Shown here: one piece after another, positions 3,558 through 53,065 of the stretch
Position numbering within the stretch: the stretch's first letter is position 1
Layout of the letters: every line of letters begins with the position of its first letter
Assembly: GCA_020049515.1 (NCBI GenBank)
Contig: JAIFKQ010000017.1
Location: 1 to 53,665, forward strand
DNA length: 53,665 nucleotides
Source of the DNA: Paludibacter sp.
GTDB taxonomy: Bacteria > Bacteroidota > Bacteroidia > Bacteroidales > Paludibacteraceae
Direction of reading: 5' to 3'
The notes under the pieces: generated by a model
What the model was told of the DNA's origin: nothing
The model's database searches: none
Seen by the model: the letters and a program-made list of their open reading frames with translations, nothing else
Translations under genes and position numbers: made by a program

Positions 3558-4907
3558 ATGAAAAAAAACTTCTTATTTAGCGCAAGTGCAATAGTATTGT
3601 TGCTTGGCATGAACTCGTGTAAAACAGCTGTAGTAGAGCCAGATGCACCATTAGTATTTTCAACTCAAACAGTGGAACAACAAAAAAAGAACATTGAACA
3701 GAGTGGTTTAGATTTGGCCGACAAAATGACTGGCTTGCAACAAACTCCTGCTTTTGAAGCTCTCAATTACTTATCTAGTGGACAGCTAAATGCGCCGGCA
3801 TTAGTAGCGCCGTTGAAGCAATTACGTGCTAGTCTATTAAGAAACGATGTCAATGCACTTCAAACATTCACCAACCAGATGAGAGTAGCTGCTAATGCTG
3901 GTGACGAGATTTGGGGTACTTGGATTTGGAACAAATCAACAGAGGATTTTGATAAATCTTTTGGATCTGTAAATAAAGCAATATATTACTTTCCAACTTC
4001 GGCTGCTTCCAGCACTAACGATGGCGTGGTTACCATTACTTACACCGAATCAAATGTGAAAGTTCCCGAAGTTACGCCAGCTGAATTCTATCCAAAGAAT
4101 TTGTCTGTTGTATTTACAATTGGAGGTGCAGAAGCATTAAAAGCTGAGTTTGCGGGTGAATATCAATCAGACGGTACGCCAACATCTGTAGCACAAAGCC
4201 TGATAATTGGGGCATATAACTGGACTACTTCCATGACAAACAAAAGCACAGAAGTTTCGGCTAGTTTCTCATTTAACTACAATACGCAAGTTATGTTGAA
4301 ATACGAAATGGGAGCTACTGGCACTTTTACTGCCAATCAGATTCAAACAGCTATGGGCGAAGAGTTAAGTCCAGAAGACGTTCTAACTAGTGGATTCATG
4401 AGTTTTCAAGTGATGAATGTGGCCATTTATGGTGGAATTACAGATGTGAAAAATTTAATGGCTGAGGGCAATGCACTTTCAAGTACAGATAAAACATATT
4501 CTGATCAGAGTGTGGAAATACTCAACAAATACTTGAAATTTTACGGATACTTTGCCGACCCAAAGGAAAAGTTTGCTGATGTAGAATTTTTTACTGCTGA
4601 AGAATTAGGAAGTGATAACAGTAAACCTGCTACATTGGTTTATACTCAAACTTCTACAAGTTGGCAACCAAATCCACCTTCTACATTAAAGTATGATTAT
4701 TACAATAGTGATTATAACTATAATCAAAGCACTCAAGAATCCGAAGTAACATATAATTTTTATGCTTACCCAACAAAAACTTTTTACAATCCTCAGCCTC
4801 GTTTAATAATGAGTGACGGCTCAAAAGTTTCTGATTTTGAAAAATTTGCAAATGATAACTTTATTACGGTATTTGAAAAATTTGAATCAATGCTGCCTAA
4901 TAATTAA
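3558..4907 (+). CDS. Secreted lipoprotein of unknown function
   Basis: A 449-residue protein. It begins MKKNFLFSASAIVLLLGMNSC, a lipoprotein signal peptide with the acylated cysteine at residue 21, so it is predicted to be anchored in the outer membrane or at the surface. An in-frame ATG at 3531 would add nine residues; both starts lie downstream of the promoter at 3482-3511. The mature part has an N-terminal helical stretch (about 35-110), then a beta-rich region, and a tyrosine/asparagine-rich segment near the C-terminus (YDYYNSDYNYNQ). I do not recognise a family. It is a single-gene unit: promoter upstream, terminator immediately downstream, and the next gene convergent. Confidence 0.8.
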   Translation: MKKNFLFSASAIVLLLGMNSCKTAVVEPDAPLVFSTQTVEQQKKNIEQSGLDLADKMTGLQQTPAFEALNYLSSGQLNAPALVAPLKQLRASLLRNDVNALQTFTNQMRVAANAGDEIWGTWIWNKSTEDFDKSFGSVNKAIYYFPTSAASSTNDGVVTITYTESNVKVPEVTPAEFYPKNLSVVFTIGGAEALKAEFAGEYQSDGTPTSVAQSLIIGAYNWTTSMTNKSTEVSASFSFNYNTQVMLKYEMGATGTFTANQIQTAMGEELSPEDVLTSGFMSFQVMNVAIYGGITDVKNLMAEGNALSSTDKTYSDQSVEILNKYLKFYGYFADPKEKFADVEFFTAEELGSDNSKPATLVYTQTSTSWQPNPPSTLKYDYYNSDYNYNQSTQESEVTYNFYAYPTKTFYNPQPRLIMSDGSKVSDFEKFANDNFITVFEKFESMLPNN

Positions 4908-4923
4908 GTAATAAATCAACACT

Positions 4924-4957
4924 AAAAAAGGTGAAGAGCAATCTTCACCTTTTTTTA
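4924..4957. terminator. Bidirectional terminator
   Basis: A 14-bp stem AAAAAAGGTGAAGA/TCTTCACCTTTTTT with a 4-nt loop and T tracts on both strands. It sits between the convergent lipoprotein gene (+) and DUF4249 gene (-) and overlaps the latter's last codon. Confidence 0.9.
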
Positions 4958-5839
4958 TGGAATAATGTAGCTGTAGTGGCTGGTGGCTTTTCCACACCAA
5001 ATTCCAAATCCAGGATAGCTTATATTTGATTTTAGTGCTTCCTTTTCGCCCAAAAACAATTCGCTACCAATTCCAGCGTTAGATGAAAAAATGGATAACT
5101 CTTTGAAAAAAAGAGTTGAAGTACTATCAATTGTACAAAACTGAATATCAACAAGATCGCCTTTTCTAAAATAACCACCTTCCGAGAAGCTAGGATCGTT
5201 TTTACCCCTATTGGGATCAATAAGAAAGGTATTCTCACCTACCAGTGTAAAATCTGAATTGAGTATCGGACTTTGCTTATAATATCTATCTCTTTTCATT
5301 CTAGTGTAAACAAGGAAACTATTTTTCTGAAGCGAATCTATTTCAACTTTTACATATAAGTTGCGCAAATATTCGTTGGTAGGTGCTGCCACAATCTCTT
5401 TAATACTCGTTTTAAATGGAATACTCGTTTTGGCATTCATAGTATATCCCCCATAACTTACTGTTAGATAATAAATTTTCCCCTCCTCTCCTATTAATTC
5501 TGTGCCATAATAACTGTGCGGGGGAAATCTTGAAGTATTCCAAGTAGAAGTAAGAATTTCAGTTTTTGCACCAACGGCCTGGGAATTAATATTGTCTGAA
5601 ACAGTCACTTTTGCATTGCTAATAATATATTTTTGAATGTAATTAGTGTCTAATTGTCCCGAAAGTGGGACGTTTAAAGACAAACTAACTTTTGGGTACT
5701 CTCCATTAACAATATATCCTTCCACAATTACTTTTTGGGTGTATCCACTTATCTTAAAATCCAAATCAGGTTTACACGAAAGCAAACATATTAGAAGTAG
5801 GAAAACTGTAATTTTATTCAAAACAAATATTTTATTCAT
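4955..5839 (-). CDS. DUF4249 family lipoprotein
   Basis: A 294-residue lipoprotein with signal peptide and lipobox (LLICLLSC, cysteine about residue 22). The N-terminal motif (VIVEGYIVNGEYPKVSLS) followed by beta-strand-rich sequence is typical of DUF4249. These proteins are almost always encoded beside a TonB-dependent receptor and are presumed surface partners in substrate capture. Here the gene lies 94 bp downstream of such a receptor on the same strand. The substrate is unknown. Family assignment rests on the N-terminal pattern and the neighbour. Confidence 0.8.
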   Translation of the reverse strand: MNKIFVLNKITVFLLLICLLSCKPDLDFKISGYTQKVIVEGYIVNGEYPKVSLSLNVPLSGQLDTNYIQKYIISNAKVTVSDNINSQAVGAKTEILTSTWNTSRFPPHSYYGTELIGEEGKIYYLTVSYGGYTMNAKTSIPFKTSIKEIVAAPTNEYLRNLYVKVEIDSLQKNSFLVYTRMKRDRYYKQSPILNSDFTLVGENTFLIDPNRGKNDPSFSEGGYFRKGDLVDIQFCTIDSTSTLFFKELSIFSSNAGIGSELFLGEKEALKSNISYPGFGIWCGKATSHYSYIIP

Positions 5840-5933
5840 ACGTTTTCGTTGGCTATCAGATTCATTAAATGAATAATTATTTTAAAAATTAGGATTCAAG
5901 TTTTCAAAGATGTATAATCGAATGTTCATTTTA

Positions 5934-8138
5934 CTAAATTCTAAAGGTCCAAGATACAGATGGAATTATTGGCAACAAATAGACCATATTGATATAAAAA
6001 TCAAAGCTCTTATTCACAAAAGCGCTGGTGCTCAAATAGATTTGAAATGGGTTAGAACGGTTATAAACATTGTAAATAGAAAAATTCAGTTCCGACTTTA
6101 TACCTCGCCACGACTTTAGCTTATAAGTGGCTGAAATATCCAACCGGTGATAGGCTGGCATTTGAAAAGCATTGTAATTTCCATATTCAAGTATTACTTT
6201 ATTGTCAACCACAAAGAAACTTACTGGTAAATTGAGCCTGGTACCTGTGGCATAAACAAATACAGCCGAAAAATCCCAACGATCATTCAGTTTGTACATC
6301 CCTACCACCGAAATATCATGGCGTCTATCGTTGCGAGCCAAAAAAGGTTTTCCACCATTTAGCTGGTCGAATTGACGGTAACTCCATGCTAAATTATACG
6401 AAACCCACCCTGAAAAATTTCCGTCGTTTTTACTCAATTTCCATTCTGCACCGTAAGTCCAACCTTTGCCAAGTAACAAATCTTTTTCGAACATGCTATT
6501 TGAAAAAGTAGATTCAATACCATTTTTATATTCCAACTGATTTTCTAATGTTTTATAGTATAACTCGGCACTTACCTCCCACTTGTTTTCCAATAAATTT
6601 TGAAAATATCCACCCGAAAAATGCCAGGATGCTTGTGGCTGAACATAGAGAGAAGCTGGAATTTGCAAATCGGTAGGTATGCCAAAAGAGAAAACTGGAA
6701 TTTGATTTAAATACTGATAATGTCGCGTGGCCGAAAGCTTGAACGATGATTGAGGATCGATTAAATACCGAGTAAAAAAGCGAGGCTCCAGGCTTATTGG
6801 AAAAGTTTTCACAATGCTATTTAAGGAAAAAACTTCATTTCCATCTGTTATATAATCAGTATATGGACCTAGTTGAGCATACAAATTAGTACGTATTCCC
6901 ACATTAAAAAGCCAATCATTCCAAGTCCATTCATCCCTAAAATAAACTGTAGCTTGAGTTGAATTTATATTATTACGCTGGCTATTGTTTTGAAATGGTA
7001 TAATTGAATCACTGTTAAGTGTTTGTGGAATGGCTGCATTGTATGAAAATTCTAAACCGTACTTGATTTTATGAATGCCTTTTAAATGAAAAAAATCTAT
7101 TTTATAATCAAGGTTTGAAAACTGGGATTGTAAGTTGAAGTCTGTGTTATGCCAATCTATCGACGATTTTATCTTAAAATTTGAATAATTTAAGGAATGG
7201 TTCATGCTCCAATTTTCGTCAAAAATATGGTTAAGCTGAAGTCCTGCCAAGGTATTTCCCCAAAAAGTTGAATTATCATTCAATTCAGCTTTCCGAAGAG
7301 ATTTAATTTTCAAATCATCATTGCCGGTATAGTAATGTCCTGTTAATTTTGTACGATTGGCTATTTTAAAAACAAAACCTGCATTTACATCCAAAAAATC
7401 ATACTCACTCTGTGTTAATGCACTGTCAACACCAAGCATAGACACCAAAGGAAGGACAAAGGAACTTATATAACTTGCACGCAATGAGGAATATATATAA
7501 AATTTTGGACTTAATGGAATGTGAACTGCCAAACGCGAAGAAATAAGCCCAATAGAGCCTTTCACATCCATTTTCTCAGGAATTGTATTTACAGTATTTA
7601 TATCAACTATTGAAGATAAGCGTCCGCCATATTCGGCTGGCATTCCAGATTTTATAAAACGCATCTGACCAATAATGTCGGGATTAAATACCGAAAATAA
7701 GCCCAAAACATGGGTTGGATTTTGAATTAATGCTCCATTCAGCATCACCAAGTTCTGATCATTATTGCCACCTCTAACGTAAAATCCCGAATTGGCTTCA
7801 CCAGCTTGCGAAACTCCTCCCATGTATTGCAAAGCTTTATAAATATCATTTTCGCCCATAAATTTGGGTAAAAGTTTAAGCTTTTTAAGATCAATTTCAA
7901 GTCCCAACGAACCACTTTTCAAATTTTCATCTTTCAATCGACCTTTCACTTCTATTTCCTGAATATTAAATTCTTTCTGAGTTATTGACTGAGCATTTGA
8001 ACTGTCGGAAACAAGAAACTGTTTGTCCTGAGCTACAAGACATTGAGCAATACTAAGAAGCATTAGCAAGAAAAACCTCCACCAACGGGCGAAGGTAAAA
8101 CTTAGGTTTTGTTGCTTTAACGACTTATTTATTGCCAA
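5934..8138 (-). CDS. TonB-dependent outer-membrane receptor
   Basis: A 734-residue outer-membrane receptor that would import a substrate using TonB/ExbBD energy. The N-terminal hydrophobic segment (FFLLMLLSIAQCLVAQ) is the signal peptide. The plug domain follows (about 75-190), with GGNNDQNLVMLNGALI and SGMPAEYGGRLSSIVD. The rest alternates beta strands of the barrel and ends SVSWTFRI, with a C-terminal aromatic residue close to the end as expected. Many phylum relatives carry a carboxypeptidase-like domain before the plug; here only about 40 residues separate signal peptide and plug, so it is absent. The start is uncertain within the first 30 residues. It is probably co-transcribed with the DUF4249 gene. 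Confidence 0.9.
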   Translation of the reverse strand: MAINKSLKQQNLSFTFARWWRFFLLMLLSIAQCLVAQDKQFLVSDSSNAQSITQKEFNIQEIEVKGRLKDENLKSGSLGLEIDLKKLKLLPKFMGENDIYKALQYMGGVSQAGEANSGFYVRGGNNDQNLVMLNGALIQNPTHVLGLFSVFNPDIIGQMRFIKSGMPAEYGGRLSSIVDINTVNTIPEKMDVKGSIGLISSRLAVHIPLSPKFYIYSSLRASYISSFVLPLVSMLGVDSALTQSEYDFLDVNAGFVFKIANRTKLTGHYYTGNDDLKIKSLRKAELNDNSTFWGNTLAGLQLNHIFDENWSMNHSLNYSNFKIKSSIDWHNTDFNLQSQFSNLDYKIDFFHLKGIHKIKYGLEFSYNAAIPQTLNSDSIIPFQNNSQRNNINSTQATVYFRDEWTWNDWLFNVGIRTNLYAQLGPYTDYITDGNEVFSLNSIVKTFPISLEPRFFTRYLIDPQSSFKLSATRHYQYLNQIPVFSFGIPTDLQIPASLYVQPQASWHFSGGYFQNLLENKWEVSAELYYKTLENQLEYKNGIESTFSNSMFEKDLLLGKGWTYGAEWKLSKNDGNFSGWVSYNLAWSYRQFDQLNGGKPFLARNDRRHDISVVGMYKLNDRWDFSAVFVYATGTRLNLPVSFFVVDNKVILEYGNYNAFQMPAYHRLDISATYKLKSWRGIKSELNFSIYNVYNRSNPFQIYLSTSAFVNKSFDFYINMVYLLPIIPSVSWTFRI

Positions 8139-44803: not shown

Positions 44804-46600
44804 ATGAAAACACTTTTTTTCACTTTCGTTCTCTTTATTTCAGTATTAGTTAGCGCTCAGACAATTCCGATGAATAACCGAGTAGAATGGGATAAGGCTG
44901 GTAATCAAAAGCTCGTATCAGACCCACAAATGGTTGTGAATGTAATGGATTTTGGGGCTCAAGCCAATGGATTTTCGGATGACAAATCAGCAATCGAAAA
45001 TGCAATTACTTCATTAAATGGGCGCTATGGTGTAGTATATTTACCTGCGGGTAATTATTTGATTCTGTCTGGATTTACGCTGCCCGATTCAGTAATTTTG
45101 CGTGGAGACGGCTCAGAACTAACACATATAAAAATAAATAGCCTCGACGATTGCTTTACTATAAGTGGCTCATCATCAAGTAAATTTACACCCGTAATAG
45201 CTGGTTTTGAGATGAATTCAAAATCAATAGTAGTTAAGAATCCATCACTCTTTTCAGTGGATAGTTATGTCGAGATTCGTCAAACTAATAGTGACTGGGA
45301 TACAAAACAAGTTTCTTGGGCCAATAAAGTGGTTGGTCAGATTTCGAAAGTGATTGAAATTGAAGGCAATATACTTACTCTTGAAGATAAATTAAGAATT
45401 AGTTTTAACGCCTCATTAAATCCAGAAATTCAGAAAATAACTCCTAGAGAACATGTTCGGGTTGAAAACTTGAGCATAGAAAGAATTAATAATTCTATAG
45501 CATCCACATCCAATATTTTTCAATTCACTTATGCTGCAAACTGCTTAATTTCGGGAGTAGAAAGCATTAAAAGTGAGGGAAGTCATGCCAAAATAAGTCT
45601 AAGCTCCCACATTGAAATTACTGGGTCGTATTTTCATCACTCATTTATGTACGATGGTGTGGGAACAAAGGGCTATGGTGTTGTATTAGATTCACATAGC
45701 AATCTATGTTTAATTACCAATAATATTTTTAGGCATCTCAGACATGCCATGATGACTAAAGATGGTGCTAATGGTAATGTGTTGGCATACAACTACTCTA
45801 CAGAGGTTTTTAGAAATGGAAAAAACGAATTTCCATCCGATTTTGGCGGTGATATTTCATTACACGGACATTACTCTTTTGCCAATCTATTTGAAGGTAA
45901 TATAGTACAAACCATACTAATAGATGAGTACTGGGGTTCTTCAGGTCCTTACAATACTTTTTTTAGAAATAGAATGGAAAAATACGGGTTCTATATGAGC
46001 ACTTCATCCACCAATAATACCAATTTTGTAGGAAATGAAACTCTCGGTAGTTTTCCTTATGGATTTTATGCAATTAGGGGAAGTGGAAATTTTATTTTTT
46101 CAAACAATCGTAATGGCGTTATAAGCCCCTCTACATCAAGCAATTTAACTGACACATCTTATTATTACAAAACAACACCATCCTATTGGGATATTCCTGA
46201 CAGATGGCCAAGTATCGGAATTCCAAACGAACTAAATCAAGGAACTATTCCTGCCAAAAACCGTTTTAATGCTGGAATCTACACTGTAGCATCGCCAAAT
46301 TTCAACTCGGGTGCAAGCAAAATTCAAAGTAATAGTACAAAGGAACTTTACCATTTAGAAGTTATTCCGAATCCAGCCAGCCAGTATGTTTTTGTAGATA
46401 TAAATTCTTCTGGAAACATGGATGCCACACTCATTTTTAGCAACTTACATGGAGAAATAATAAAGCAGGGTAATTTTTATTTTACGGAAAAAGGTATTAT
46501 TAGAAAAACAATTGATATATCGAGTTTTTCTAATGGAGTGTATTTTATGAGATTAACGACTAAAAACGGCATATATTCTCAAAAATTAATTGTTCAATAA
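44804..46600 (+). CDS. Secreted pectate-lyase-like beta-helix protein with T9SS sorting domain
   Basis: A 598-residue exported protein. A Sec signal (MKTLFFTFVLFISVLVSA) is followed by a Pectate_lyase_3-type right-handed beta helix (about 40-460), opening VMDFGAQANGFSDDKSAIENAI, the classic start of such folds, and GVVYLPAGNYLI. The C-terminal 80 residues (VIPNPASQYVFVDI to the final QKLIVQ) are a type A T9SS sorting domain, so the protein is expected on the surface or released. It may be a polysaccharide lyase or hydrolase. No catalytic residues can be assigned from reading, and no carbohydrate transport genes lie beside it. Confidence 0.88.
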   Translation: MKTLFFTFVLFISVLVSAQTIPMNNRVEWDKAGNQKLVSDPQMVVNVMDFGAQANGFSDDKSAIENAITSLNGRYGVVYLPAGNYLILSGFTLPDSVILRGDGSELTHIKINSLDDCFTISGSSSSKFTPVIAGFEMNSKSIVVKNPSLFSVDSYVEIRQTNSDWDTKQVSWANKVVGQISKVIEIEGNILTLEDKLRISFNASLNPEIQKITPREHVRVENLSIERINNSIASTSNIFQFTYAANCLISGVESIKSEGSHAKISLSSHIEITGSYFHHSFMYDGVGTKGYGVVLDSHSNLCLITNNIFRHLRHAMMTKDGANGNVLAYNYSTEVFRNGKNEFPSDFGGDISLHGHYSFANLFEGNIVQTILIDEYWGSSGPYNTFFRNRMEKYGFYMSTSSTNNTNFVGNETLGSFPYGFYAIRGSGNFIFSNNRNGVISPSTSSNLTDTSYYYKTTPSYWDIPDRWPSIGIPNELNQGTIPAKNRFNAGIYTVASPNFNSGASKIQSNSTKELYHLEVIPNPASQYVFVDINSSGNMDATLIFSNLHGEIIKQGNFYFTEKGIIRKTIDISSFSNGVYFMRLTTKNGIYSQKLIVQ

Positions 46601-49645: not shown

Positions 49646-50206
49646 ATGATTGAAAATCAGATTTTTGAACGTATAGATTACACTACGAATAAAATTCCAA
49701 AAGGTGAATATGAGTGTTGTAAATTTTTGAACTGCAATTTTTATACTGCCGATGTATCAAATATTACGTTCAGAGAATGTGAGTTTGATGGGTGCGATTT
49801 CAGTTTAGCAAACCTTAAAAATACGGCATTAAACGATGTCAAATTTATTGGTTGTAAATTGCTAGGTGTTCAGTTTGAAGGCTGCAACTCGTTTTTGCTT
49901 TCATTCCAGTTTGAAAATAGTCTGTTAAAATTGGCTGTTTTTAGCAAATTAAAATTGAAGAAAACGATTTTTAAAAATTGTAATTTGCAAGAAACCGATT
50001 TTTCAGAAGCCGACCTCAGTGGCTCATCCTTTGATAATTGCGATATGGAACGGGCTATTTTTCACAAAACAATATTAGAGAAAGTGGATTTCAGAACAGC
50101 ATTCAATTATTCCATCGACCCCGAACAAAATAGAATTAAAAAAGCCCGATTTTCGAGCATGGGAGTGGTCGGATTGTTGGATAAATATGGGATTGTGATA
50201 GAATAA
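49646..50206 (+). CDS. Pentapeptide-repeat protein (Qnr/McbG-like)
   Basis: A 186-residue protein of right-handed quadrilateral beta-helix type. Pentapeptide repeats of A(D/N)LXX type run from about residue 22 to 155 (for example FRECEFDGCDFSLANLKN and CNLQETDFSEADLSGSSFDN). The C-terminal ARFSSMGVVGLLDKYGIVIE is conserved in Qnr- and McbG-like proteins, which mimic DNA and protect gyrase. Whether this one acts on gyrase is unknown. It begins 33 bp after the preceding gene and may be co-transcribed with it. Confidence 0.88.
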   Translation: MIENQIFERIDYTTNKIPKGEYECCKFLNCNFYTADVSNITFRECEFDGCDFSLANLKNTALNDVKFIGCKLLGVQFEGCNSFLLSFQFENSLLKLAVFSKLKLKKTIFKNCNLQETDFSEADLSGSSFDNCDMERAIFHKTILEKVDFRTAFNYSIDPEQNRIKKARFSSMGVVGLLDKYGIVIE

Positions 50207-50248: not shown

Positions 50249-50280
50249 TTTGTAGATTATGTCAAAATTCAGTACATTTG
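50249..50280 (+). promoter_or_regulatory. Consensus promoter of the AAA ATPase-TOPRIM operon
   Basis: TTTG (50249-50252), 20 nt, then TACATTTG (50273-50280), a full match to the Bacteroidota consensus. Transcription would start about 13 nt before the ATG at 50300. Confidence 0.78.
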
Positions 50281-50299
50281 TAACCAAATATAACATTTT

Positions 50300-51415
50300 A
50301 TGATTCAATCATTTGAAATAAATAACTTCCGTTGCTTCCATTCTACAAAAGCAACAGGTTTTACTAGAATAAACTTATTGGGAGGCAAAAATAATGCTGG
50401 AAAAACTGCATTGTTAGAAGCTCTATATTTAATGGGTAATCCTTCAAACCTGACAATCAACAATATACTTAGATTAAGAAATATAAATCCTGATAAAATG
50501 AAAGAATTTCCAGAAACGGCTTGGAATAATTTCTTTTATCAACAAGATAACAGTATTGAAATAACCATAGATTTCATTTTGGATAAAAAGAAAGGAACTG
50601 TTTTGATAACTTGTGATGAAATCATAGATGATTACGTTGATTATGTTGAAAATGAAAAAGATACGCAAGGCAAAGAGATATTAGATTTTGTAAAAACTCT
50701 TTCTGATACTGAAAAAATCAAATCGTCATTACACATAAATTCAAATTTTAACAACAAAGTTCAGTCTAATGTTTATGTAAGCAATACGAATGGAATTAAA
50801 GGGACAAATAATTCTAACGGCAATATCAATATTAACTTTATACCAGCAAACGCAAAACGCTCTGTGAGGCTCTTAACCACTGACTTTGCGAAAGCTAAAC
50901 TCAGTGGTAATTACCCACTTTTGCTGAAAGCATTTAGGATAATTGATAAAGATATAGAAAGCATAGAGACTTTAAAAACAGATGAAGCTAATTTGTATGT
51001 TACAAGAAAAGGTGAAAAACCATTGCAGTTATCGCTTTTTGGGGATGCAATGAATAAAATAACCGATTATATTCTTCAAATAGTGAACAATAAAAATTGT
51101 ATTCTTTTATTAGATGAAATTGAAAATGGTATTCATTATGAGAATCAGGAAGAAATTTGGGAAATTCTTTTTGAATTGGCTGAAATGAACAATGTTCAAA
51201 TTTTTGCTACTACCCACAGCAAGGAAATGATTGAAGCATTTAAAAATATAATTATTAAAAATAATTACCAAGATAGTGGGAGCTATTTTGAGATGCTTCG
51301 TCATAGAATATCGAATGAAATTCTGATAGAGAAGATGCCAATTTATTTGTTACAAGATAGAATTGAGAAGCAAGAACCAATTAGAGGAGAAGACTCGAAT
51401 AAAAGAAAAGCGTAG
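50300..51415 (+). CDS. AAA15/OLD-type ATPase
   Basis: A 371-residue SMC/ABC-like ATPase. The N-terminus MIQSFEINNFRCFHSTK is the hallmark of AAA15/AAA21/OLD ATPases. Walker A is LLGGKNNAGKTALLEAL (about 26-42), Walker B is ILLLDEIENGIHYENQEEI (D near 272) with the D-loop, and the switch histidine is in FATTHSKEMIEAF (about 304). The middle (about 95-240) is a less conserved insert. There is no nuclease domain in the chain. The next gene, 4 bp downstream, encodes a TOPRIM protein, so together they correspond to an OLD-type ATPase-nuclease split in two. Own promoter at 50249-50280. Confidence 0.9.
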   Translation: MIQSFEINNFRCFHSTKATGFTRINLLGGKNNAGKTALLEALYLMGNPSNLTINNILRLRNINPDKMKEFPETAWNNFFYQQDNSIEITIDFILDKKKGTVLITCDEIIDDYVDYVENEKDTQGKEILDFVKTLSDTEKIKSSLHINSNFNNKVQSNVYVSNTNGIKGTNNSNGNININFIPANAKRSVRLLTTDFAKAKLSGNYPLLLKAFRIIDKDIESIETLKTDEANLYVTRKGEKPLQLSLFGDAMNKITDYILQIVNNKNCILLLDEIENGIHYENQEEIWEILFELAEMNNVQIFATTHSKEMIEAFKNIIIKNNYQDSGSYFEMLRHRISNEILIEKMPIYLLQDRIEKQEPIRGEDSNKRKA

Positions 51416-51419
51416 CACT

Positions 51420-52157
51420 ATGAATATTCTAATTGTTGAAAGTGAAACTGATGAGTTTTTCATTCAAGCCCTTGTAAATAAGTTTTCTATTGATAATAAA
51501 GTTTGCTGCATAGATGAATTTAAACATAGTAGCTTAAGTAAGGAGAAGTTACAAATTCAGATTGCTAGTGCATTAAGAGATATAAATAGGGGAGCTGGAG
51601 TTTCGAAGATTGGGATAATTCTGGATCTAGATAATTCAAATCAAATGGATAGAATCAGCTTGATAAACAGTAGTATTACTCAAGCATTAATTGATTTGAA
51701 TTACGCTGTTCCCGATGTTTTGTTGGTAGATGTCAATACATTTATTTCAATACCTATCGATTCTGAATTGAACATTAAAATGGCTTGTTATTTTACAAAT
51801 GTTGATGGACAAGGTGAGCTAGAAACAATTTTGAAAGAAATATCGACACAGGAATCAATTTTTGCAGATTGCCTAGAGCACGGTTGGAGAAATTGTATCA
51901 CTCAAAAAGGAAAAAATATTGTTGGTCCAAATAAACAAGGTGATATAACTGAAAAAGAAATTCTAAAACTTTGGGTCGATTTTTATAAAAGATTTGACAC
52001 ACTCAAAAAGTCTGACAGAGATTATAAAAATACTAATTGGAAAGGCATAATGCTTGGTAATTCATCCAAAGATAATGTTGCAAGAGGGGAAAGTATATTT
52101 GATTTGGATGCTCCGATATTGTCTGAATTGAAATCGTTTTTGGGCTTATTTAATTAA
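51420..52157 (+). CDS. TOPRIM-type protein (DUF3226-like), partner of the AAA ATPase
   Basis: A 245-residue protein. The start MNILIVESETDEFFIQALVN carries the TOPRIM first-strand glutamate (E7), and GIILDLDNSN supplies the DxD pair (D69 and D71). Later regions, CLEHGWRNCITQKGKN and the last helix LDAPILSELKSFL, resemble DUF3226. The metal-binding acidic residues fit a nuclease or primase-like catalytic centre. An in-frame start at 51363 lies inside the ATPase gene; 51420 is preferred since it sits 4 bp after that gene's stop. Co-transcribed with it. Nuclease activity is inferred. Confidence 0.82.
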   Translation: MNILIVESETDEFFIQALVNKFSIDNKVCCIDEFKHSSLSKEKLQIQIASALRDINRGAGVSKIGIILDLDNSNQMDRISLINSSITQALIDLNYAVPDVLLVDVNTFISIPIDSELNIKMACYFTNVDGQGELETILKEISTQESIFADCLEHGWRNCITQKGKNIVGPNKQGDITEKEILKLWVDFYKRFDTLKKSDRDYKNTNWKGIMLGNSSKDNVARGESIFDLDAPILSELKSFLGLFN

Positions 52158-52174: not shown

Positions 52175-53065
52175 TTACTCCCCTAAATCCATAGCTCCCG
52201 TAATTTCAGCCGATACTTCATTTGTCCATCCCGCTTGCTGAAAAACAGCTGTTTGCACTTTTATAAAACGGATGCTTGATAGTTTTACGGTATTTCCAGC
52301 ACTGTCCACGGCATTTGAAATGTCAAGTTTGTTGCCTCCAGAAGTTTTGCTGTAATCTATTCCGTGTATATTTTCGGCATATCCTTCTGTAAATCTGCCA
52401 CGAGGTACTGCCCATAATGTGACGCCCTCACTCGAATTATCATCGTAAGCATCTGGCAAACGCGTGCCAGCAAAGGTAATGCTATCGGCAGTTGTTGCTG
52501 GCCACCACCATTTTGCGGAATTATTAGCCCCGTAGCCACAAATAACTTCGCCCACGGCATTTTTGCTGTCCTTCCAAGTTATGTTTGTGCTGTCGGATGA
52601 GGCTTTATAGTAGCGAACCCAGTAATTTCGTTGGCTATTTTCAAATTGATTTCCTTTGAGCTCATACCAAGTTTCGTTGGGTTTTCCGTCAGCATTATCG
52701 TCTCGCATTACATACACTATGGCTGGTTCGGGTGATACGCCTGGCAATGCAAATACTTCAAAATCTGCACCTTCGTCATTCATTACATCATGATTGAAAC
52801 CTGCTATCACATAACCCCCAAATCCGCCCAAATATAACCACGATTTTTCGCTTGATGGTTTTCCTATCACGTTTTTTATATCAGTTGCAAATGCTTTTGT
52901 GGCATATTGACTTGGTGCAAAAACATACTCAAATACTTCCGAAATATAGGCCGAGTCATCTGTGGGTTCTTCGGCAGGCTCGGTTTTGCACGAAAAAAGA
53001 ATTATTGAGATAAAAACTGTAGCAATGAATTGAAACTGAGAACTATGTTTTTGACGGTAATGCAT
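52175..53065 (-). CDS. Surface lipoprotein of unknown function
   Basis: A 296-residue lipoprotein. The signal ends at a lipobox (ISIILFSC, cysteine about 26), followed by an acidic spacer (TEPAEEPTDDS). The body has GKPSSEKSWLYLGGFGGYVIAGF and DRDNADGKPNETWYELKG-like sequence with an acidic DDNADGK loop that may bind calcium. It resembles surface proteins with this fold found in several Bacteroidota transport loci. I cannot name the substrate. It is a single gene, convergent with the TOPRIM gene at 17 bp and 67 bp from the ABC-exporter gene. Confidence 0.7.
   Translation of the reverse strand: MHYRQKHSSQFQFIATVFISIILFSCKTEPAEEPTDDSAYISEVFEYVFAPSQYATKAFATDIKNVIGKPSSEKSWLYLGGFGGYVIAGFNHDVMNDEGADFEVFALPGVSPEPAIVYVMRDDNADGKPNETWYELKGNQFENSQRNYWVRYYKASSDSTNITWKDSKNAVGEVICGYGANNSAKWWWPATTADSITFAGTRLPDAYDDNSSEGVTLWAVPRGRFTEGYAENIHGIDYSKTSGGNKLDISNAVDSAGNTVKLSSIRFIKVQTAVFQQAGWTNEVSAEITGAMDLGE

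Follow-up and report, generated by a model that had tools for sequence, protein, structure and literature searches.

A paired AAA_15 ATPase and DUF3226 gene in Paludibacter sp., a probable anti-phage cassette related to known split ATPase-TOPRIM systems

The stretch of DNA analysed here (53,665 nucleotides of Paludibacter sp., contig JAIFKQ010000017.1; hereafter the window) harbours two plus-strand genes 4 bp apart, encoding an AAA_15-type ATPase and a DUF3226 protein (Table 1). The pair is probably, though far from certainly, an anti-phage cassette of split ATPase-TOPRIM design (PADLOC candidate system PDC-M38) that was gained horizontally and works, like PARIS and AbiL, by abortive infection. 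The coordinates and spacing of the two genes given in a preliminary description of the window were confirmed, and defence, one of the two roles which that description named, is the likeliest one on our data: the pair is sporadic in its distribution, is inserted at its site, has relatives in many phyla and in one of these relatives lies inside an Hma operon.

Table 1. Positions in the window of the ATPase-DUF3226 pair, its conserved codons and neighbouring features
Feature	Position	Strand	Remarks
Gene with T9SS sorting tail	44804-46600		Same window
Pentapeptide-repeat gene (left flank)	49646..50206	+	Borders the empty site in relatives; outside the cassette
Promoter-like match, TTTG-N20-TACATTTG	50249..50280	+	In the 93-bp gap 5' of the ATPase gene
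ATPase gene	50300..51415	+	371 aa, AAA_15; ATG at 50300, TAG ends at 51415
Walker A, GKNNAGKT (residues 29-36)	50384..50407	+	G29, N31, N32, G34 and K35 invariant in 41 rows
Walker B (residues 268-273)	51101..51118	+	D272 and E273 invariant in 41 rows
ATTHS motif (residues 303-307)	51206..51220	+	T304, H306 and S307 invariant in 41 rows
R362 codon	51383..51385	+	R in 41/41 rows; low-confidence C-terminal tail of the ATPase
DUF3226 gene (likely TOPRIM-type nuclease)	51420..52157	+	245 aa; ATG at 51420, stop ends at 52157
E7 codon	51438..51440	+	First TOPRIM acid; E in 67/71 rows
DxD motif, D69-L70-D71	51624..51632	+	D69 in 71/71 rows, D71 in 70/71 rows
E135 codon	51822..51824	+	E in 63/71 rows, D in 8/71; corresponds to Bp OLD E508 by order and spacing
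K183 codon	51966..51968	+	K in 68/71 rows; corresponds to Bp OLD K562 by order and spacing
Convergent 296-aa gene (right flank)	52175..53065	-	Borders the empty site; outside the cassette

The gap 5' of the ATPase gene contains a match to the pattern TTTG-N20-TACATTTG, which we take to be the Bacteroidota promoter consensus. A match is thus indeed present where the preliminary description had given the pair a promoter of its own, while by itself it is weak, because the window contains 10 such matches versus 6.15 expected from shuffled sequence, and 10 or more turn up in 8 of 100 shuffles. A promoter is weakly suggested by one thing, i.e. the position of the match inside the gap, for which simple arithmetic from the shuffle figures gives about 0.004 expected matches. 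Sigma-70-like sites showed no excess over chance in the window (11 found versus 12.7 expected). The same window encodes a protein with a sorting tail of the T9SS, a marker of Bacteroidota.

The first protein matched AAA_15 in Pfam (E=1.2e-23, 84.8 bits against a cut-off of 32.1) and Pfam found no nuclease domain in it, in agreement with its earlier description as an AAA15-type ATPase lacking such a domain. Taken together, the Walker A motif, D272, E273 and H306 are invariant or nearly so across the 41 aligned rows. AlphaFold2 returned a confident model (mean pLDDT 89.9) that matched the heads of Rad50, SMC, PtuA, OLD and GajA in Foldseek, with Rad50 and SMC ranked at the top. At the sequence level, the ATPase alone (query P0002) matched no PDB sequence at 1e-3, while profile A6, built from 40 of 72 ATPases, matched PtuA, OLD, Rad50 and RecF, with AriA (3.4e-6) behind PtuA and OLD. 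Residues 86-185 of the ATPase change fast (mean identity 17 %), and residues 361-370, which include R362, are modelled with a mean pLDDT of 62.

The second protein exceeded the gathering cut-off of 27 for DUF3226 (PF11536; E=1.5e-14, 54.7 bits) and matched no other Pfam family at E<=1, neither DUF4435 nor RloB being among its matches. The three acidic residues that had been named as its TOPRIM core, i.e. E7, D69 and D71, proved correct in a 71-row alignment, in which they are joined by E135, K183 and D11, the latter forming an E-x3-D motif with E7 (D in 60 and E in 6 of the rows). Structure prediction, which had been proposed for both proteins, gave a confident model here too (mean pLDDT 90.7, pTM 0.88), with E7 just past strand 1, D69 at the end of the third strand (residues 63-69) and a strand and helix order that is presumably that of TOPRIM; in Foldseek, this model nevertheless matched no PDB or viral structure at E<=0.001, the PARIS-complex chain 8ux9_A following at rank 37 (E=0.16) and, in the viral library, an RloB-like phage protein at rank 11 (E=0.24). 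The two-metal site of Bp OLD is reported to consist of E400, E404, D455, D457, E508 and K562 (PMC6755086), and the window nuclease shares the order E, E/D, DxD, E, K of this OLD-type site, a correspondence based on order and spacing and not on superposition, whereas no residue clearly corresponds to T506 of Bp OLD.

Profile comparison by hhalign gave the nuclease a probability of 85.5 against OLD, 59.4 against DUF4435 and 40.7 against RloB, versus 0.4 for the negative control, i.e. the alignment of the ATPases, and E7 and the DxD motif were aligned in all three TOPRIM comparisons. OLD is thus the nearest of the three profiles compared, with modest differences among them and a DUF4435 profile of only four rows; the OLD and RloB profiles held 18 and 17 of 20 loci, respectively, after removal of contig-edge loci, one short ORF and two loci with internal stops. 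Against PDB sequences, profile A5 (60 of the 70 nuclease relatives aligned) matched one protein, PH0156 (2p62), at 3.4e-5, for which the smaller profile A1 gave only 0.87. Judged from sequence and motif rather than proved by fold search, the second protein is likely a TOPRIM protein.

The pairing of the two genes is strict across phyla, as borne out by the search of other genomes that the preliminary description had proposed. Scanning genome contigs with the ATPase alignment A2 confirmed at least 430 relatives, and among the best 80, which were kept, 75 have a DUF3226 gene directly 3' of the ATPase gene. The choice of these 80 was not blind, because A2 came from ATPases adjoining DUF3226, while the scan itself ignored the partner. 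In 71 of the 75 pairs the nearest nuclease start lies between -14 and +31 bp from the ATPase stop, gaps being measured to the start codon nearest to that stop and hence biased toward zero. As for the five relatives without a clean pair, L063 ends inside a recognisable partner gene, L074 ends inside the ATPase, the ATPase is interrupted in L035 with no partner within the stretch read, L072 is cut short next to what by eye appears to be the start of a transposase, and no DUF3226 partner was found beside the ATPase in L111.

Starting from the nuclease, a search of the phylum found an ATPase adjoining DUF3226 in 26 of 28 places, the remaining two being a 543-aa chain in which ATPase and TOPRIM are fused, detected by the DUF3226 Pfam model (L029), and a fragment (L020); nuclease frames are broken or partial in four of the 28 (L006, L020, L027 and L031). 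Distances in the ATPase and nuclease trees correlate (mirror-tree r=0.84 for 39 pairs, with a maximum of 0.44 in 1000 permutations), a value that fits co-evolution and shared descent alike and cannot separate them. Several pairs may also occur in one place: a Campylobacterales bacterium carries four successive and mutually diverged ATPase-nuclease pairs (L098:3756-9789; identities of 43-52 % among the ATPases and 24-56 % among the nucleases), and L099 and L088 carry two pairs each.

The pair is rare among relatives of its host. Only four of 198 genomes of the order, including the genome under study, match the query P0001, PF11536 occurs in 17 of 395 genomes of the phylum, and none of 23 same-genus genomes, some of them incomplete, has a full-length match to the ATPase (P0002), five having short and weak ones. 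Its site was analysed through the right-flank gene, whose product is without a Pfam family, in 10 of 14 relative loci. In four of these 10 (L138, L140, L143 and L147), the pentapeptide-repeat gene lies near the right-flank gene without the cassette, with fewer than 20 bases between the two flanking genes in L140 and L147. A DUF2442 gene occupies the gap in two same-genus loci (L138:6219-6464 and L143:3266-3511), and the site may therefore be open to repeated uptake of small accessory genes. In the other six loci the pentapeptide-repeat gene was not found within the stretch examined, and none of the 10 stretches contains a match to the ATPase or the nuclease.

In the ATPase tree the window groups with rows from Candidatus Halobeggiatoa (Pseudomonadota) and Desulfonema (Thermodesulfobacteriota) with a support of 100/99, so that its nearest rows probably belong to phyla other than its own, with the caution that genome bins can hold foreign contigs. 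Furthermore, the G+C content of the pair is 30.1 % versus 35.4 % for the window. Taken together, the sporadic occurrence, the empty site, the cross-phylum tree neighbours and the lower G+C content point to acquisition of the cassette by this lineage through horizontal transfer.

As to the vehicle, a phage origin was set aside: P0001 found no relative among viral contigs and A2 found eight loci, of which the one inspected (L152:5001-6192, a putative viral contig of IMG/VR) has a 238-aa ATPase ORF followed by an ORF that is nuclease-like at its start and divergent later. The query P0002 gave two matches among phage records, and the one inspected (L230, CAKLQH020000003.1, labelled Acinetobacter phage MD-2021a) looks like a bacterial chromosome, with glyQ and glyS adjoining the ATPase gene, which is followed after 5 bases by a small second gene. 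A plasmid origin was likewise set aside, the 149 plasmid records matching P0002 all being below 60 % identity (five cover at least 80 % of the length, and those listed have about 26 %) and P0001 matching a single one, a 4.09-Mb Acinetobacter record.

In other clades, the pair looks stably inherited rather than subject to fast turnover, because its neighbours stay constant in about 10 Microcoleaceae/Oscillatoriales and four to five Campylobacterota loci. By eye, the neighbours in L045, L047, L051, L052, L053, L055, L056, L058 and L062 resemble phosphoketolase, histidine phosphatase and acetate kinase. The constant cyanobacterial neighbours suggest a single old insertion that has been retained, and in nine cyanobacterial loci the two genes are under purifying selection (median dN/dS of 0.32 and 0.33, from 36 non-independent comparisons per gene).

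Counting the pair beside known defence genes, a check likewise put forward at the outset, gave no sign of enrichment, which speaks against a defence role. For 15 of the 28 places with DUF3226, i.e. those on longer contigs, 104 flanking ORFs (with the ORFs of the pair removed by hand) were compared with 122 ORFs drawn from 15 other stretches of these contigs at a PADLOC threshold of E<=1e-25, and 17 PADLOC families were found in the flanks versus 19 in the controls, the counts referring to families, nearly all with one member, and not to proteins. Some of the families listed, such as DpdF and PsyrT, may be just generic helicases, because the DEAD-box gene of the window itself also matches these models. 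When 10 large flank ORFs were checked again, two had PADLOC matches, namely HmaB and HmaC, both at G496:C35, and the other eight had none at E<=1e-20. This locus (L159:602-9980) contains an Hma defence operon in which HmaB and HmaC flank an ATPase-DUF3226 pair of the same orientation. Within the window, eight of 10 genes near the pair had no PADLOC match, and the remaining two, a DEAD-box helicase and an ABC transporter, gave partial matches that in our judgement are what generic members of these families give.

The precedent for the mechanism that we propose comes from PARIS, also classed as class 4 OLD, in which the ATPase and TOPRIM proteins are encoded by the separate genes ariA and ariB (PMC10568477, PMC12796447): AriA is reported to hold AriB until a phage protein frees it, whereupon AriB cuts tRNA (PMC12409363). 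AbiL and pairs of AAA and TOPRIM_OLD proteins are likewise treated among toxin-antitoxin and abortive-infection systems (PMC10440598). By analogy with PARIS, in which AriA forms a hexamer, and with AbiL, an oligomer of the window ATPase would sense infection and restrain its DUF3226 partner until a phage trigger releases or activates this nuclease, which would then cut nucleic acid by a two-metal mechanism and stop the infected cell. The substrate would be slightly likelier to be tRNA, as for AriB, than DNA. Speculatively, the invariant R362, whose tail shows little order when the ATPase is modelled alone, may serve in docking to the nuclease or to an adjacent subunit of the ATPase. A bolder version, in which we place little confidence, would make the AAA_15 and DUF3226 pairs a lineage of split ATPase-TOPRIM immunity in their own right, distinct from PARIS and AbiL and present in many phyla, with the C-terminal arginine tail of the ATPase holding the nuclease, residues 86-185 acting as the sensor and tandem diverged pairs such as those of L098 widening the range of triggers.

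The strongest competing explanation takes the two proteins as one stable DNA nuclease, i.e. a split equivalent of OLD and GajA in which the ATPase gates the cutting of phage or foreign DNA and no free toxin is involved. The rank of OLD among the three TOPRIM profiles, the match by order of the DNA-cutting residues reported for Bp OLD, T506 excepted, and the existence of the fused chain all fit this explanation, but the hhalign differences are modest, with the DUF4435 profile resting on four rows, and sequence does not separate an RNA-cutting from a DNA-cutting enzyme. Moreover, the TOPRIM protein of the likewise split PARIS, AriB, is reported to act on tRNA (PMC12409363), and an action on DNA, which the preliminary description mentioned for OLD and GajA, is left unsupported for the pair; we regard this alternative as possible but rather unlikely. 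Alternatively, the pair could be a toxin-antitoxin or addiction module, the ATPase neutralising a toxic nuclease for persistence only, without any gain in defence for the host, as would suit the compact two-gene unit, the lack of defence-gene enrichment in the flanks and the reported pairing of AAA antitoxins with TOPRIM_OLD toxins (PMC10440598). However, the same source itself speculates that AAA-neutralised pairs are abortive-infection systems, and one relative of the pair is embedded in Hma, and we consider a pure addiction function quite improbable. A RecF/Rad50-like housekeeping or repair function, although in line with the top Foldseek ranks of the ATPase, the constant neighbours in some cyanobacteria and Campylobacterota and the purifying selection on both genes, can be given hardly any credence in view of the few genomes of the order and phylum that carry the pair, the absence of a full-length ATPase from the same-genus genomes, the empty site in relatives and the matching of the ATPase model to PtuA, OLD and GajA heads too.

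If the anti-phage mechanism favoured here is true, DUF3226 would become an immune nuclease, and the pair would offer a third split ATPase-TOPRIM lineage in which to ask how an ATPase silences a nuclease and what frees the latter. Given its strict pairing, its conserved residues and its empty site, the cassette is compact and well defined enough to suit a plaque assay. The gain would be one of breadth and not a new principle, because this kind of system is already known.

Indeed, the split form, previously called poorly described, has published examples in PARIS/class 4 OLD, AbiL and pairs of AAA and TOPRIM_OLD proteins (PMC10568477, PMC12796447, PMC12409363, PMC10440598), and PADLOC already lists such pairs as PDC-M38. 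Both window proteins match the latter by HMM score, the ATPase with 1.7e-51 for PDC-M38A, next to 4.6e-53 and 1.5e-13 for the AbiLi models PDLC02336 and PDLC02335, and the nuclease more distantly with 4.1e-10 (37.8 bits) for PDC-M38B, over residues 2-99 only; a relative from Spirosoma (L104) reaches 1.7e-95 and 9.5e-58 for PDC-M38A and PDC-M38B, respectively. Such PADLOC candidates are reported to derive from guilt-by-embedding, with validation pending for most of the core set (PMC12988326), and we infer that both apply to PDC-M38 too; the pair inside the Hma operon is one instance of such embedding. No mention of DUF3226 or PDC-M38 was found in a literature search of partial coverage, and because of that coverage the silence only weakly suggests that the pair has yet to be tested.

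With AbiL, the window pair shares the two-gene arrangement and an AbiLi-type ATPase (PDLC02336), whereas its nuclease has no counterpart to the AbiLii/RloB partner (no Pfam RloB and no PADLOC AbiLii at E<=1), and AbiL proper was set aside for this lack. A distinct AbiL pair exists elsewhere in the genome of the window (L212, G000:C11, about 4270-6307), with AbiLi PDLC02335 at 6.8e-98 and an RloB-type AbiLii at 3e-32, as well as two further RloB matches on C21 and C165, the one on C165 below the cut-off. PARIS has separate, adjacent ATPase and TOPRIM genes like those of the window, while its TOPRIM protein AriB, which we take to be DUF4435, differs from the DUF3226 partner found here; PARIS proper was set aside, as no DUF4435 match was obtained at E<=1, the four-row DUF4435 profile giving an hhalign value of 59.4. 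OLD of class 1 and GajA (class 2) have the ATPase head and the order of TOPRIM residues in common with the pair, whereas OLD proteins of classes 1-3 are single chains and the window has two ORFs with a stop between them. Gabija, in which a GajB helicase stands beside the nuclease, was set aside as well, the genes directly beside the pair being the pentapeptide-repeat gene and the one for the 296-aa protein and not a helicase gene. Considering that the pair resembles systems already described, its placement as a divergent relative of the known split ATPase-TOPRIM anti-phage cassettes, and not as a new kind, is well supported.
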